This document shows positions 4,107 through 11,698 of a stretch of 12,794 nt of DNA, piece after piece. Source of the stretch: Candidatus Aerophobota bacterium (GTDB lineage: Bacteria; Aerophobota; Aerophobia; Aerophobales; B3-G15). Each line of letters begins with the position of its first letter. Positions within the stretch are counted from its first letter, which is position 1. The notes beneath the pieces are model-generated. The model worked only from the letters and a program-made list of their open reading frames with translations, was not told the DNA's origin and made no database searches. The DNA is taken from the NCBI GenBank assembly GCA_030607715.1, contig JAUWJM010000038.1, positions 1-12,794 of the forward strand, written 5' to 3'. A program made the translations under genes and the position numbers.

Positions 4107-5270
4107 ATGATAACTAAAGTTATAATGCCCAAATTGGGAGAAACTATGGAAGAAGGAGAAATTATAAAATGGTTAAAAAAAGAGGGGGATACAGTAAAGG
4201 AAGGAGAGCTTCTCTTAGAGATTACTACTGATAAAGCTGATATGGAGATAGAGGCTACTACTTCAGGGGTAGTAAGAAAAATTGTAGCTCAAGAAGGCCA
4301 GGTTGTTCCTATTACAGAGACAATTGCCTATATTGCTGATAGTATGGATGAAAATGTCCCTCTAAAAGAAGAAGAAAAAGTAGAATCTGAAACAGTAGCT
4401 AATGTTGAAAAAGAAGTTGTTTCCATTAAAGCTTCTCCCTTAGCCAAAAGATTAGCTAAAGAGAAAAAAATTGATCTTTCCATTATAAGGGGAACAGGAC
4501 CCGGAGGTAGAATAACAAAGGAAGATGTCTTAAGATGCGCAGAGGAAAAAGAGACTAAAAGAGAAGGTGCACCTTTAGCTAAGGAAGAGTTTTCTTTATC
4601 CAGGATAGAGAAAATTATGGCTCAAAGAATGCAGGAAAGCAAAAGACAGATACCACATTTTTACCTTACCAACGAGGTTAATTTCTCGCAGGCGGTGAAG
4701 TTTCGGAATGATTTATTAGAGGAATTTGAAAAAGAAAAAGGTGTTCATCTCTCCTACACTGATCTGCTAATTAAGGCTTGTGCTCGAGCTCTAAATAAAT
4801 TTCCCAGAATTAATTCTTGTTTTAAAGGAGAAAAAGTAGTTAGTTTCTCTCAGGTAAACATAGGATTAGCAGTGACTACAGAGAGGGGATTAATTGCCCC
4901 TGTAATTAAGGATGTGGATAAAAAGGATATCTTTCAAATAGCTAAGAATCGAGTAGAATTGGTAAATAAAGCTAAAGAGAATAAACTCAGCTTGAAGGAA
5001 GTGGAAGGGGCAACATTTACCCTTTCTAATTTGGGGATGACAGGAGTAAAAACATTTGCTGCTATTATTAATCCTCCTCAGGTTGCCATCTTAGCTACAG
5101 GAGAAATTAAAGAAAAACCGGTAGTGAAAGAGGAGAAAATTGTTGCGGCTTTAGTTATAGAGATGACCCTTTCCTGTGATCACAGAGCTGTTGATGGATA
5201 TCTGGGGGCAAAGTTTCTTCAGGAAGTAAAAAGGGGATTGGAAAAGCCTTCTATTCTTTTGAAATCTTGA
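4107..5270 (+). CDS. Dihydrolipoamide acyltransferase (E2) of the 2-oxoacid dehydrogenase complex
   Basis: A 387-residue core protein of the complex, which takes the acyl group from E1 on a swinging lipoyl arm and transfers it to CoA. Domains in order: one lipoyl domain, residues 1-78, with the lipoylated Lys43 in TTDKADMEIEA; a charged Glu/Lys/Val-rich linker, about 79-107; a peripheral-subunit-binding domain, about 108-145 (ASPLAKRLAKEKKIDLSIIR then GTGPGGRITKEDV); a second linker; and the acyltransferase domain from about 160, with TFTLSNLGMTG at 303-313 and the catalytic motif DHRAVDG at 358-364 (His359, Asp363). A single lipoyl domain makes this a short E2. It follows the fused E1 gene by 18 bp and must work with it. 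The E3 lipoamide dehydrogenase is not in the window. Confidence 0.93.
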   Translation: MITKVIMPKLGETMEEGEIIKWLKKEGDTVKEGELLLEITTDKADMEIEATTSGVVRKIVAQEGQVVPITETIAYIADSMDENVPLKEEEKVESETVANVEKEVVSIKASPLAKRLAKEKKIDLSIIRGTGPGGRITKEDVLRCAEEKETKREGAPLAKEEFSLSRIEKIMAQRMQESKRQIPHFYLTNEVNFSQAVKFRNDLLEEFEKEKGVHLSYTDLLIKACARALNKFPRINSCFKGEKVVSFSQVNIGLAVTTERGLIAPVIKDVDKKDIFQIAKNRVELVNKAKENKLSLKEVEGATFTLSNLGMTGVKTFAAIINPPQVAILATGEIKEKPVVKEEKIVAALVIEMTLSCDHRAVDGYLGAKFLQEVKRGLEKPSILLKS

Positions 5271-7767: not shown

Positions 7768-7822
7768 AGTAGCCGCAGGCTTTAACCTGCGAAGACAAGC
7801 GCAACTTAAAAGTTGCGGCTAC
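7768..7822. repeat. Palindromic REP/MITE-like element, copy 1
   Basis: A 55-bp structured element in the ribH-prmC gap. GTAGCCGCA at 7769-7777 is exactly complementary to TGCGGCTAC at 7814-7822. Inside are two hairpins: CGCAGG/CCTGCG around loop CTTTAA (7774-7791), and CGCAACTT/AAGTTGCG around AA (7800-7817). With both formed, GTAGC/GCTAC still pairs, giving a three-way junction. G+C is about 52%, well above the AT-rich surroundings. The direct repeat ATTGA flanks it at 7763-7767 and 7823-7827. GTAG beside a hairpin is the foot recognised by REP-associated (RAYT, Y1) transposases, and the mirrored arrangement resembles an inverted REP pair; a direct repeat instead suggests a MITE moved by a DDE enzyme. 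No transposase is in the window. Confidence 0.8.
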
Positions 7823-7836
7823 ATTGACTAAATGAA

Positions 7837-8829
7837 ATGGAACAGGAAAAGCAGTCTTGGAGTATTAAAAAAAGTTTGAAGTGGGGAATTCAATATCTTA
7901 AAGAAAGAGAGATTGAAAACCCTCAGGCAAATGTTGAGCTGATAATAGGTAAGATACTAAATCAAGACCGTCTGAATCTTTATCTTATCTCTAATGATTT
8001 TCTTTCCCCTCTTCAGATTAATGAATTCCAGGAGTGTATAAAAAAAAGAGCTCGGGGTATTCCTTTACCTTATATTATTAAAGAGAGCTACTTTATGGGC
8101 CTTAAATTCCGGATAAGCTTTGATGTTTATATCCCGCGTCCAGAAACAGAGCTTCTGGTAGAGAAAGCTCTAAATTTAATTAACAGCTTAAAATCAGAGG
8201 AAAAAGTTTTAGCCTTAATTGATCTGGGAACTGGATGTGGGAACATTGCCATTAGCCTGGCTAAAAAGTTAAAAAGGGTAAACCCCGTTAGAAACTTTGG
8301 AAGAGGCTTTAAACCCCTCCCAAACCATTTGTTTAGAAAACCCTTGTCCCCGCCTTTGCGGATGGGGCCTTCTAATGGGGTAAAGATTTATAGTATTGAT
8401 ATTTCTTCCCGGGCCTTAAAAGTAGCTGAAAAAAATATGAAGTTACATGGGGTGGAAAAACAAGTAGAGCTTCTTTTAGGAGATATTTTTTCTCCTTTGA
8501 AAAGAGTTAATTTAAGGGGAAAAATTGATGGGGTAATTTCTAATCCTCCCTATGTTAGTACTCACCAGATAAATTTTTTGTCCAGGGAGGTAAGAAAAGA
8601 ACCCAGAATTGCCCTTAATGGAGGAAAAACAGGCCTGGAATTTTTTGAAAGAATTATTCCTGAAAGTTCGTGGTATCTTAAAAGAAAAGGATTTTTAATT
8701 ATGGAAATTGGATATAATCAAGAAAATGAAGTCAAGCAGTTAATCTTATCTCAGAAGAATATGAAATTTTCTTGTATAATTCCAGATTACCAGGGTAATC
8801 CTCGAATTGCTGTAGCTATAAAAAAATAA
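7837..8829 (+). CDS. prmC: Release factor glutamine methyltransferase with in-frame palindromic insertion
   Basis: A 330-residue SAM-dependent enzyme that N5-methylates the glutamine of the GGQ motif in translation release factors. Residues 1-about 85 form the N-terminal helical domain (IQYLKEREIENPQANVELII at 18-37), RPETELLVE at 101-109 is the conserved linker, LIDLGTGCGNIAISLAKKL at 127-145 is the SAM motif I, and SNPPYVS at 235-241 is the catalytic NPPY loop. Residues 149-182, a Pro/Arg/Lys-rich segment starting NPVRNFGRGF, have no counterpart in the family; they separate motif I from the VKIYSIDIS strand (182-190) whose Asp188 should bind SAM. Without them the protein would be 296 residues and read KLKRVKIYSID, which is normal. 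No Shine-Dalgarno precedes the ATG; the palindromic element ends 14 bp upstream. Whether the enzyme is still active cannot be told. Confidence 0.92.
   Translation: MEQEKQSWSIKKSLKWGIQYLKEREIENPQANVELIIGKILNQDRLNLYLISNDFLSPLQINEFQECIKKRARGIPLPYIIKESYFMGLKFRISFDVYIPRPETELLVEKALNLINSLKSEEKVLALIDLGTGCGNIAISLAKKLKRVNPVRNFGRGFKPLPNHLFRKPLSPPLRMGPSNGVKIYSIDISSRALKVAEKNMKLHGVEKQVELLLGDIFSPLKRVNLRGKIDGVISNPPYVSTHQINFLSREVRKEPRIALNGGKTGLEFFERIIPESSWYLKRKGFLIMEIGYNQENEVKQLILSQKNMKFSCIIPDYQGNPRIAVAIKK
8283..8380 (+). mobile_element. Palindromic element inserted in frame in prmC
   Basis: CCCCGTTAGAA at 8283-8293 faces TTCTAATGGGG at 8370-8380, an inverted repeat with one mismatched position, and each arm can extend one base outward (A8282/T8381). 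The interior carries more pairing: TTTGGAAGAGG (8296-8306) with CCCCTCCCAAA (8314-8324) at nine of eleven positions, and CCGC-CTTT-GCGG (8350-8361). TAAA flanks it at 8279-8282 and 8381-8384, extendable to GGGTAAA at 8276-8282 and 8378-8384. Element plus one TAAA copy is 102 bp, exactly 34 codons. G+C is about 49%. The arrangement resembles Rickettsia palindromic elements, which also insert in frame in genes, but no homology to them is claimed. Confidence 0.82.
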
Positions 8830-8836
8830 GCTTATC

Positions 8837-8840
8837 AGGA
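8837..8840 (+). promoter_or_regulatory. Ribosome binding site supporting the TTG start of mrdA
   Basis: AGGA at 8837-8840 lies six bases before TTG 8847-8849. It decides in favour of this non-ATG start; no in-frame ATG occurs before the transmembrane segment. Confidence 0.6.
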
Positions 8841-8846
8841 AGAAAT

Positions 8847-10622
8847 TTGCTCCCTTTAAGAGAATTTATTCAAGGAAAAGGGGAAATAGAAGGAAGAATT
8901 AAGCTAATTTTGATAATCATACTAAGTGCCTTTCTTTTTATTTTAGGCAGAGTAGCCTGGCTGCAGCTTGTAAAAGGAGAAAGGTATCTCTGGCTTTCCA
9001 GGACTTCTCACCTTAGACTTCTTCCCCTGCCTGCACCTCGGGGAATAATTTTAGATAGAGAGGGAAGGATTTTAGCCGATAACCGGGCGACCTTTTCCAT
9101 AGGTGCTATCCCTGCCAATATTAAAAGTTTACCAGAGCTTCTTGATTCCCTTGAAAAGATCTTACCTTTAGATGTTGATTTAATTAAAGGGAAGATTAAA
9201 AATGTCTCTAACCCATTTCGTCCAGTGACATTAAAAAAAAATATAAGTTTATCCGAGGTTACTTATCTTTTAGAAAGAGAAGAAGAGTTCCCCGGGGTGG
9301 TTATTCTTACCCAACCTGTACGAAATTATCCTCATGGGAAATTAGTAGCCCATTTGCTTGGTTACCTGGGAGAGGTAAATAAAGAGGAATTAAATAGTTC
9401 TTTGGCTTCAAAAATAGAGTTGGGGGATCTGGTAGGAAAAGTAGGGATAGAAAAAGTGTATAACAGGTATCTTCAGGGAGAAAAAGGAGGAAAACAACTG
9501 GAAGTAGATGCCCATGGCCGAGAATTAAGAACTATTTCTTGTAAAGATTCTCTTCCTGGTGACAATATTTACCTTACTTTAGATTTAAAGATGCAGCAAA
9601 TTGCTGAGGAGGAATTAGGAGAAAGAAAAGGCGTGGTCTTAATAGGAGATCCTTATACAGGAGAGATATTAGTTTTGCTCTCTCATCCTTCTTTTGACCC
9701 CAATCTCTTTGTCCAGGGCATATCTTTATCGGTTTGTGATAAGCTATTTAGCGATTCGGGCAATCCCTTAGAAAATCGTGCTATTAGAGGAGAATATTTT
9801 CCTGGTTCCTCTTTTAAAATTATAGTTGCTATAGCAGCTTTAGAGGAAGGAAAAGCGACTGAGAGCACTACTTTTTTTTGTGGAGGAAAACTTCAGGTAG
9901 GCAATCGGATATTTAAGTGTTGGAAAGAGGAAGGCCATGGGCGGTTAAACCTGGAGAAGGCTATAATTCATTCCTGCAATGTTTACTTTTATCAGTTGGG
10001 ATTAAAAGTAGGCGTTAAGGACATAATTAAATACGCTGAACTTTTTGGCCTGGGTCAGCCTACAGGAATAGATTTGATCTCAGAGAAAAAGGGTTTTGTT
10101 CCCACTTTGGAGTGGAAAAAGAAAAATTATGGGGAGATCTGGTATCCTGGGGACACAACTAATTTATCTATTGGACAAGGATATATTTTAGTTACTCCTT
10201 TACAAATGTTAGGTGTTATTAATGCTATAGCTAATGGAGGAAACTTGCTTAAGCCTCATTTACTGAAAAGAGTGGTAGATTTTGAAGGAAAAGTTATTCC
10301 TTTAAATTCTTCTCAAACGATAAGGAAGGTTTCTATTTCTTCTTCTACTCTTAAATTTTTGAAAAGATCACTGCGGGGAGTGGTAACTCAAGGGACAGGC
10401 TGGAGAGCTGAAAATAAAGTGGTAAAAATATCCGGTAAAACTGGAACTGCTGAGGTCGCCTGGAGAGAGGAGCCTGATAACTGGTTTGTAGGATATGCTC
10501 CTTCTGAAAATCCTTCTTTGAGTATTGTAGTGTTGGTGGAGCAACGAGAAGAGGAAAGAGCAATTGCTCCGGAAATAGCGGGAAAAATCCTTGCTCGAAT
10601 TTTTACCTCAATTCAAATTTAA
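8847..10622 (+). CDS. mrdA: Penicillin-binding protein 2 (peptidoglycan D,D-transpeptidase, elongasome)
   Basis: A 591-residue membrane-anchored transpeptidase that cross-links peptidoglycan during side-wall growth, partner of RodA. It begins at a TTG codon 17 bp after prmC. One membrane segment lies at about 18-41 (IKLILIIILSAFLFILGRVAWLQL). The PBP dimerisation/pedestal region follows: PAPRGIILDREGRILADN at 62-79, HLLGYLGEVN at 169-178, GLxK-like GLVGKVGIE region at 192-202 and DAHGRELR at 221-228. The transpeptidase domain from about 235 has the three active-site motifs: SSFK at 321-324 (nucleophile Ser321, Lys324), SCN at 376-378, and KTGTAE at 531-536. GQGYILVTPLQM at 443-454 is also typical. 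Length is normal for the class. The mreBCD genes that often precede this pair are absent here; prmC takes their place. Confidence 0.95.
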   Translation: MLPLREFIQGKGEIEGRIKLILIIILSAFLFILGRVAWLQLVKGERYLWLSRTSHLRLLPLPAPRGIILDREGRILADNRATFSIGAIPANIKSLPELLDSLEKILPLDVDLIKGKIKNVSNPFRPVTLKKNISLSEVTYLLEREEEFPGVVILTQPVRNYPHGKLVAHLLGYLGEVNKEELNSSLASKIELGDLVGKVGIEKVYNRYLQGEKGGKQLEVDAHGRELRTISCKDSLPGDNIYLTLDLKMQQIAEEELGERKGVVLIGDPYTGEILVLLSHPSFDPNLFVQGISLSVCDKLFSDSGNPLENRAIRGEYFPGSSFKIIVAIAALEEGKATESTTFFCGGKLQVGNRIFKCWKEEGHGRLNLEKAIIHSCNVYFYQLGLKVGVKDIIKYAELFGLGQPTGIDLISEKKGFVPTLEWKKKNYGEIWYPGDTTNLSIGQGYILVTPLQMLGVINAIANGGNLLKPHLLKRVVDFEGKVIPLNSSQTIRKVSISSSTLKFLKRSLRGVVTQGTGWRAENKVVKISGKTGTAEVAWREEPDNWFVGYAPSENPSLSIVVLVEQREEERAIAPEIAGKILARIFTSIQI

Positions 10623-10624
10623 AA

Positions 10625-11698
10625 ATGAAAACGAAAACACTTTATATATCACGAAGACTGGATTGGTGGCTTCTTTTATCTACTTTAATAATAAGTGGTT
10701 GGGGAATTTTCCATCTGTATACTCTTTCTTTTGCTGGTGAATTCTACTACTTTAAGCGTCAGTTGATCTGGGTTGGAATTGGCTTTGGACTGGTAGTTTT
10801 ATTTTATTTCCTTAAGCAGAGTTTCTGGAAAAATTTAGCTTATTTTATTTATGGAATAGTTTTTTTTACCTTAGTGGTGGTTCTATTTAAAAAAGGTGAG
10901 ATTCATGGAGCTCAAAGATGGCTAAGGCTGGGCTGGATAAGTTTTCAACCATCAGAATTTGCTAAAATAGTTCTCATCCTTACCTTAGCTAAGTTATTAT
11001 CCGGAAAGGAATATATAGGGTGGAAGAAGATTGGGATTTCCTTTTGCCTTATGACTGTTTTTGTTTTTCTGGTAGCTAAACAACCGGATTTAGGAAGCGC
11101 TATTATTTTTCCTATTTTATGGTTAGGAATTCTTTTTTTATCCGGAATATCCTGGAGGAAGCTTCTGATTATTTTAGGAATAGCTTCTTTTTTCCTTCCC
11201 ACAACTTTTCTTTTTCTTCATTCTTATCAAAAACTGCGTATTCTTACCTTTCTTAATCCTCAGGCGGACCCGTTAGGCGCAGGGTGGAGCATCCTTCAAT
11301 CAAAAATTGCCTTGGGCTCAGGAGGATGGCTAGGAAAGGGCATAGGGGGAGCAGCTCATACCCAGTTGAAATATCTACCCAGGCCTTTTACTGATTTTAT
11401 CTTCCCCAGTATAGGTGAAGAATGGGGATTTATAGGTATTTTGGGATTGTTGGTTCTTTACTCTATCATTCTCTTAAGAGGTATGAGTGTGGTTAAAGAA
11501 AAGGGTAAAAGTTTTGCGGGTCTGACAGCAGGAGGATTTGTTATTTTGTTTTTTCTACAAGTTTTTATTAATACGGGTATGAGCACAGGAATCCTACCTG
11601 TAACAGGAGTTCCTCTTCCCTTAATTAGTTATGGAGGAAGCTCTACTATTACCTTTCTTTGGGGAATAGGAATGTTGCTTAGTTTTAAAAGAGAATGA
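10625..11698 (+). CDS. rodA: Peptidoglycan glycosyltransferase RodA (SEDS family)
   Basis: A 357-residue polytopic membrane protein that polymerises lipid II into glycan strands, coupled to PBP2. I count about nine to ten hydrophobic segments. SEDS hallmarks: GAQRWLRLGWISFQPSEFAKI at 95-115, KQPDLGSA at 152-159, LRILTFLNPQADPLGAGW at 204-221, GWLGKGIGGAAHTQLKYLP at 234-252, TDFIFPSIGEEWGFIG at 256-271 with the catalytic Asp257, and VTGVPLPLISYGGSS at 326-340. The segment before TDFIF reads LPRPF, where RodA/FtsW proteins usually have an LPExH pattern. It starts 2 bp after the mrdA stop without a clear Shine-Dalgarno, so translational coupling to mrdA is likely. FtsW is the alternative name for such proteins, but pairing with PBP2 points to RodA. 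Confidence 0.93.
   Translation: MKTKTLYISRRLDWWLLLSTLIISGWGIFHLYTLSFAGEFYYFKRQLIWVGIGFGLVVLFYFLKQSFWKNLAYFIYGIVFFTLVVVLFKKGEIHGAQRWLRLGWISFQPSEFAKIVLILTLAKLLSGKEYIGWKKIGISFCLMTVFVFLVAKQPDLGSAIIFPILWLGILFLSGISWRKLLIILGIASFFLPTTFLFLHSYQKLRILTFLNPQADPLGAGWSILQSKIALGSGGWLGKGIGGAAHTQLKYLPRPFTDFIFPSIGEEWGFIGILGLLVLYSIILLRGMSVVKEKGKSFAGLTAGGFVILFFLQVFINTGMSTGILPVTGVPLPLISYGGSSTITFLWGIGMLLSFKRE

Follow-up and report, generated by a model that had tools for sequence, protein, structure and literature searches.

A short palindromic mobile element inserted in frame in prmC of a Candidatus Aerophobota bacterium belongs to a family dispersed over several phyla

The prmC locus and its palindromic insert

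The DNA analysed here (12,794 nucleotides, hereafter the window) carries a prmC gene whose product matched the TIGR03534 equivalog with 237 bits vs a cut-off of 199, and the PrmC_N profile with 57.6 bits (Table 1). Within this gene lies a 98-bp palindromic element with a G+C content of 51%, vs 34% in the remainder of prmC. Together with one 4-bp repeat, the element accounts for 34 additional residues in PrmC (NPVRNFGRGFKPLPNHLFRKPLSPPLRMGPSNGV; residues 149-182 of 330), lying after motif I (DLGTGCGNIAISLAKKL) and before the strand that follows it, KIYSIDIS. A preliminary description of this locus, made from the sequence alone, had reported inverted arms, 34 added residues and a protein that rejoins as KLKRV-KIYSID when 102 bp are deleted. 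All three were confirmed; the arms pair over 11 positions with one mispair, and the next two positions (12 and 13) are unpaired in this copy. The same description had extended the TAAA at the two edges to GGGTAAA. TAAA does stand on both sides, but the duplication is 4 bp; the longer GGGTAAA has only limited meaning, since on the right side the GGG belongs to the end of the element.

Table 1 Features of the window at and within prmC.
Feature	Position	Strand	Basis or remark
prmC, peptide chain release factor N5-glutamine methyltransferase	7837..8829	+	330 aa, stop included; host gene
Palindromic mobile element, 98 bp	8283..8380	.	empty site in L001, sister copies, protein alignment
Left TAAA of the 4-bp target duplication	8279..8282	.	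the empty site has one TAAA, L001 4429-4432; family statistics
Left arm CCCCGTTAGAA, an end of the element family	8283..8293	+	positions 12-13 unpaired here, paired in most other copies
Inner hairpin GAGGCTTTAAACCCCTC	8303..8319	.	read from the sequence; like motif in the AUK284 copy and copies of relative G037
Inner hairpin CCCCGCC...GGATGGGG	8348..8367	.	read from the sequence; like motif in some G037 copies, e.g. L187
Right arm TTCTAATGGGG	8370..8380	+	one mismatch vs the family's TTCTAACGGGG
Right TAAA of the 4-bp target duplication	8381..8384	.	empty site L001; family statistics

We predicted the structure of the window PrmC with AlphaFold2 from 75 sequences. The mean pLDDT was 89.9, with values of at least 90 for 279 of the 330 residues, and it fell below 50 at residues 1-3 and 149-179, the latter stretch sitting between helix 136-146 and strand 181-188. 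The insert is thus predicted to be a loose excursion from an intact fold. It does follow motif I, as the preliminary description had it, but the model places it in a loop beyond the motif-I helix and not in the SAM-binding core itself.

In the window alone, the arm motif was found twice vs 3.4 matches expected (at most 2 mismatches), and the fold of the element is only somewhat better than that of shuffled sequences (RNA z -1.3; DNA z -2.0). Since both values are near chance, the proof of the element is comparative. Rfam gave no match at the gathering score. The best GTDB match to the window, a locus of Candidatus Aerophobetes AUK284 (L001), is syntenic with it at ~83-90% DNA identity and has an empty site in prmC. 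In the BLAST alignment, window 7839-8282 corresponds to L001 3989-4432 and window 8381-10794 to L001 4429-6835, so that the two L001 pieces share exactly four bases, 4429-4432, which are one TAAA. The element was therefore inserted at a TAAA in prmC with one TAAA left on each side, and the 98 + 4 = 102 bp keep the frame. Elsewhere in the AUK284 genome (G001), a second copy, 76-77% identical to the window element and also in TAAA, is placed between two ORFs by our reading.

The closest PrmC orthologues are mixed. In the protein alignment, P0002, P0004, P0005 and P0006 have no insert, and P0003, 78% identical to the window PrmC outside the insert, has 34 residues at the same place. In a tree computed with the insert excluded, the window PrmC and the empty P0002 are sisters (100/99) and the filled P0003 lies outside, which requires at least two events: the site either gained the insert and then lost it precisely, or was hit twice. 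The window and P0003 inserts have 22 of 34 residues in common; by eye, this likeness is about that between the window insert and the peptide of the AUK284 intergenic copy, and it therefore does not choose between loss and reinsertion. A palindrome between short direct repeats could be lost precisely through slipped replication, which may account for the mixed presence among the closest sisters. A protein search with the insert region alone matched nothing except the window itself, probably because the interiors change so quickly that no 5-residue words are left in common. With the nucleotide-level empty site in AUK284 and the four close orthologues lacking the insert, the in-frame insertion proposed in the preliminary description holds. 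The outcome it had named as fatal, the same 34 residues in all close orthologues and no copies elsewhere, was looked for and is not what we found.

A dispersed family with paired arms and duplicated flanks

The ends of the family read CCCCGTT(A/C)GAA...TTC(T/G)AACGGGG. The CCCCGTTAGAA end occurs 65 times in the relative G037 vs once for the control, a reversed motif, and 16 times in G005 (Ca. Aerophobetes Ae_b3b, containing locus L011) vs 3 for the control. When C was permitted at position 8, the end was found 103 times in the 1.2-Mb Omnitrophota genome of L039 (control 3), 35 times in the Elusimicrobia genome of L043 (control 5) and 28 times in a second Elusimicrobia genome, that of L034 (control 1). 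Any end match was present in 35 of 50 genomes, many of these being no richer than their own control. We then counted compact members with a stricter two-ended pattern of 29-59 bp in phylum samples, each taken evenly from a larger group. They were present in 45 of 285 genomes of Omnitrophota (the phylum of the L039 genome), in 3 of 294 genomes of Elusimicrobiota (the phylum of the L043 genome) and in none of 299 genomes sampled from the phylum of a Desulfotomaculum genome; the reversed pattern, used as control, had no match in any genome of the three samples. With a longer and slightly looser version of the pattern (87-117 bp), 3 of the 17 genomes from the AUK284 phylum each had a single copy. 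Furthermore, the AUK284 copy and several of the G037 copies share interior motifs with the window element. The repeated family that had been anticipated thus exists, with further copies in AUK284 and other relatives, and the window element is a member of a dispersed multi-phylum family found in Aerophobetes, Omnitrophota and Elusimicrobia genomes.

Neither phage nor plasmid records matched the element in BLASTN. Compact copies occur in five IMG/VR stretches (L375, L376, L377, L378 and L379) from four viral contigs, and such viral copies are a possible route between hosts. Two copies of ~200 bp (L178 2586-2786 and L212 2493-2692) have an interior that looks like a palindrome nested in the common 94-bp G037 copy.

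The arms were analysed in 72 cluster representatives, each at least 44 bp long. Positions 1-11 are near-invariant save position 8, which is A or C and mostly matched on the opposite arm. The arms are complementary at position 12 in 66 of the 72 (shuffle mean 54.5) and at position 13 in 55 (shuffle mean 25.2, at most 39), where all four pair types occur; at position 14 they are complementary in only 13 (shuffle mean 18.9). The coupling is also seen within single genomes, where it is present at positions 12 and 13 and gone by 14. The terminal inverted repeats by which a MITE is recognised consist here of 11 near-invariant and 2 covarying positions. Such coupling would be expected if an enzyme requires paired arms or if one arm is copied from the other; shared descent accounts for part of it.

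From the fetched loci we gathered 141 distinct copies, 140 of which could be used for the flanks (one lies at a contig end). Identical 4-mers stand at both sides of 79 of the 140 vs a shuffle mean of 21.4 and a maximum of 36 in 10,000 shuffles, although the copies are mutually related, so that these counts, like those of length and frame below, are not independent. With TAAA and TTTA excluded, the flanks are identical in 27 of 46 copies vs 3.3 expected (maximum 10). Identity over 5 bp was found in one copy of 140, and all 79 identical 4-mers fit YNNR. The flanks are therefore a 4-bp duplication with a symmetric preference and not a fixed tag, and the duplication has the constant length expected of a MITE, 4 bp in the 79 copies as well as at the empty site. 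Candidate reasons for the 61 copies without identical flanks are decay, nested insertion, or a minority class flanked by CTCG or CGAG. In the L313 class, mostly of 29 bp, CTCG or CGAG stands next to the ends; in L313 itself the two are inverted (CTCG...CGAG) and not duplicated. CTCG or CGAG stands on one side only in L310, L315, L323, L326, L329 and L372.

The one-sided TAAA had first led us to suspect an IS200/IS605- or REP-like mechanism, in which a Y1 HUH transposase would place one strand on the 3' side of an invariable TAAA, the right TAAA being the element's own and nothing being duplicated. TAAA or CAAA is indeed on the same side in six oriented copies of the window subfamily and in the AUK284 copy, the arms pair like a hairpin, and Y1 transposase matches were found in 36 of 61 relatives. 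However, the tetranucleotide varies and yet matches on both sides, as counted above for copies other than TAAA/TTTA; the other 25 relatives, the carrier G015 included, have no Y1 match; and none of the 30 fetched Y1 loci is bracketed by a good end pair. Because the matching 4-mers are variable, we prefer a duplicating transposition and consider the Y1 mechanism improbable.

Two transposase families that we take to produce 4-bp duplications, PF01609 and PF13701, were searched for in 20 carrier genomes: the former matched in 11 and was not found in 9, and the latter was above the cut-off in 1. We fetched 62 transposase loci, 26 of PF01609, 6 of PF13701 and the 30 of Y1, which are a subset of the Y1 matches. 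None of the 62 is bracketed by a pair of family ends with at most one mismatch each. A looser pair, with 2 mismatches in at least one end, was present at five of them, none of the five having matching 4-bp flanks. The fetched DNA, 2.3 Mb with some overlap, contains two long end pairs with matching flanks: a nested pair, which recurs in three overlapping loci, and a 966-bp pair (L368). The latter was considered as an autonomous element and rejected, as inspection revealed no transposase-like ORF. No candidate for the mover of the family was found among the Y1, PF01609 and PF13701 loci or the long end pairs.

At L039 1067-1345 (also L259 and L276), a 279-bp element with the family's ends surrounds a small GIY-YIG nuclease ORF, and a further element abuts it with a common TTTA. 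An ORF enclosed in this way, with TTTA on both sides of the element (L039, same place as L259), would fit a GIY-YIG nuclease acting as the autonomous driver. Against such a driver, 30 loci were fetched from among the GIY-YIG matches listed, and family ends stand around only one of them; a scan of whole loci returned only L259. The carrier AUK284 has no GIY-YIG match, and in L374 an insertion seems to have struck the GIY-YIG gene itself. A GIY-YIG driver is in our view more improbable still than a Y1 transposase, and the gene fits better as captured cargo.

Reading frame and host proteins

Duplicating insertion of a 4-bp target adds the element length plus 4 bp, and in 94 of the 141 copies this sum can be divided by 3, the length mod 3 being 2. 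We defined a gene-embedded copy as one in which both flanks alone have open frames of at least 60 codons, a rule that is a crude gene finder and yielded 43 copies. The sum is a multiple of 3 in 37 of these 43 and in 57 of the 98 copies outside called genes; the length bias thus extends beyond callable genes, which we count against our main reading. Among the 43, the frame is continuous and open through 35, continuous but closed in 4, and lost in 4. After similar interiors were collapsed, 59 of 85 copies have the 3n length and 25 of 33 are continuous and open. The preliminary description had held that an open frame must run through the element; the statistics of length and frame support this, with 8 of the 43 copies as exceptions, some of which may be two neighbouring genes.

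The open gene-embedded copies read mostly "NPVRN...SNGV". At the left end, the 35 open copies read PVR (28 copies), PLE (6) or PLR (1), so the NPVRN-like peptides mentioned in the preliminary description are genuine. The third frame meets a TAG in the A-type end, and the frame of the window copy avoids that TAG.

We chose 20 host proteins from the open copies and compared all of them with NCBIfam and 10 of them also with Pfam. In 12 of the 20, the match to a known family extends across the element; in the other 8 it does not. The 12 are PriA, UvrB (two copies), MutS, MurJ, a GltA-type glutamate synthase subunit, TrpE/PabB, an AddB-like protein (below the cut-off), an AmmeMemoRadiSam B/A protein, MurF, TrpS, HolB and PolA. 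In alignments with solved UvrB, TrpS and 4ylf_B, a relative of the GltA-type host, gaps coincide with the elements; for PolA, the best alignment with a solved structure passes over the element region. The family is thus recurrently in frame inside conserved proteins. An Elusimicrobia uvrB (L303) has two 44-bp elements 49 bp apart (1423-1466 and 1516-1559), both in frame, and an AddB-like protein (L349 near 2075-2127) reads NPVRN...SNGVNPVRN, as if a second element starts directly after the first.

If ribosomes bypassed the hairpin during translation, no peptide would be added at all. The strong arm pairing around a variable interior and the 4 gene-embedded copies that are in frame yet have a stop would suit such a bypass; it would, however, work with any length and with a closed frame, and since the 3n length and the open frame are both strongly observed, bypass is very improbable. 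Hardly credible is an ordinary lineage-specific PrmC loop that is palindromic by accident, for which the 34-residue insert of P0003 at the same place would speak, and which is refuted by the sister empty sites, the 4-bp duplication and the copies elsewhere in AUK284 and in other phyla. The protein-coding-tolerant element family first proposed is supported by the empty site, the copies elsewhere and the open-frame statistics.

Relation to known palindromes and implications

Taken together, window 8283-8380 is very probably a non-autonomous, MITE-like transposable palindrome. A trans-acting enzyme would bring both arms together and cut a YNNR target with a stagger of 4 bases. Selection would remove insertions that disrupt the frame of needed genes, and the peptide added to PrmC would be translated as a loose surface loop that PrmC tolerates.

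Protein-coding palindromes are reportedly present in Wolbachia. Two articles describe Rickettsia palindromic elements (RPEs) as short and open-frame, lying in frame within conserved protein genes as well as in intergenic DNA (PMC2229807, PMC10969869); the former further describes a guanylate kinase bearing an RPE as translated and active with altered substrate affinity, and its Table 1 lists RPEs at 105-146 bp with the target duplication given as '?' (PMC2229807). The family of the prmC element is likewise open and in frame in conserved genes, as seen in the 35 of 43 copies and 12 of 20 hosts, a likeness of behaviour and not a claim of kinship. It differs from the RPEs in that its hosts are Omnitrophota, Elusimicrobiota and Aerophobetes and not Rickettsia, and in its 4-bp YNNR duplication and copies down to 29 bp.

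With bacterial MITEs such as Correia/NEMIS, RUP and ERIC, the family has in common terminal inverted repeats, a target duplication, dispersal and the lack of an internal transposase. Some bacterial MITEs are fused in frame to genes according to these articles (PMC2229807, PMC10969869), and most of those listed in one of them have TA at the termini (PMC2229807). In contrast, the prmC family has a YNNR duplication and largely free interiors, and no parent insertion sequence was found for it among the Y1, PF01609 and PF13701 loci and the long end pairs.

A third comparison is with REP palindromes, which are linked to RAYT transposases. GTAG-tagged palindromes are described as small, in many copies and with a tetranucleotide at one end (PMC3733652). 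In the family studied here, the tetranucleotide is duplicated and variable, its variable 4-mers matching on both sides and not forming a fixed one-sided tag without duplication, and many copies are intragenic. The window itself has, in the ribH-prmC gap (7769-7822), an unrelated palindromic pair, GTAGCCGCAGG...GCGGCTAC, which looks like a GTAG-tagged REP pair; GTAGCCGCAGGCTT occurs six times in L003. In the Omnitrophota locus L260 (~1484-1770), the arms of another palindrome, CCCCCACACCAAT...ATTGGTGTGGGGG, enclose a GIY-YIG ORF; CTTG stands on either side, and this may be a sister family. We found no description of the prmC palindrome family in the open-access literature, most subscription papers being outside that scope.

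A more general picture, which we offer tentatively and consider rather unlikely, is one of cross-phylum minimal transposons whose covarying 13-bp arms would be the sole conserved feature around an arbitrary interior, with a 4-bp YNNR duplication, precise loss and recognition of paired hairpins by an enzyme, and whose in-frame peptides would be continually added to and removed from essential proteins.

The in-frame behaviour of palindromes, known best from Rickettsia, is here seen in several uncultivated phyla, and the family supplies clear target duplications and a natural pair of empty and filled sites. As replication, repair and translation enzymes are hit, UvrB twice, both the mover and the tolerance of proteins to repeated insertion become testable questions. 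The family would also account for inserts of the NPVRN...SNGV type in metagenomic proteins, which can upset annotation, alignments and structure prediction.
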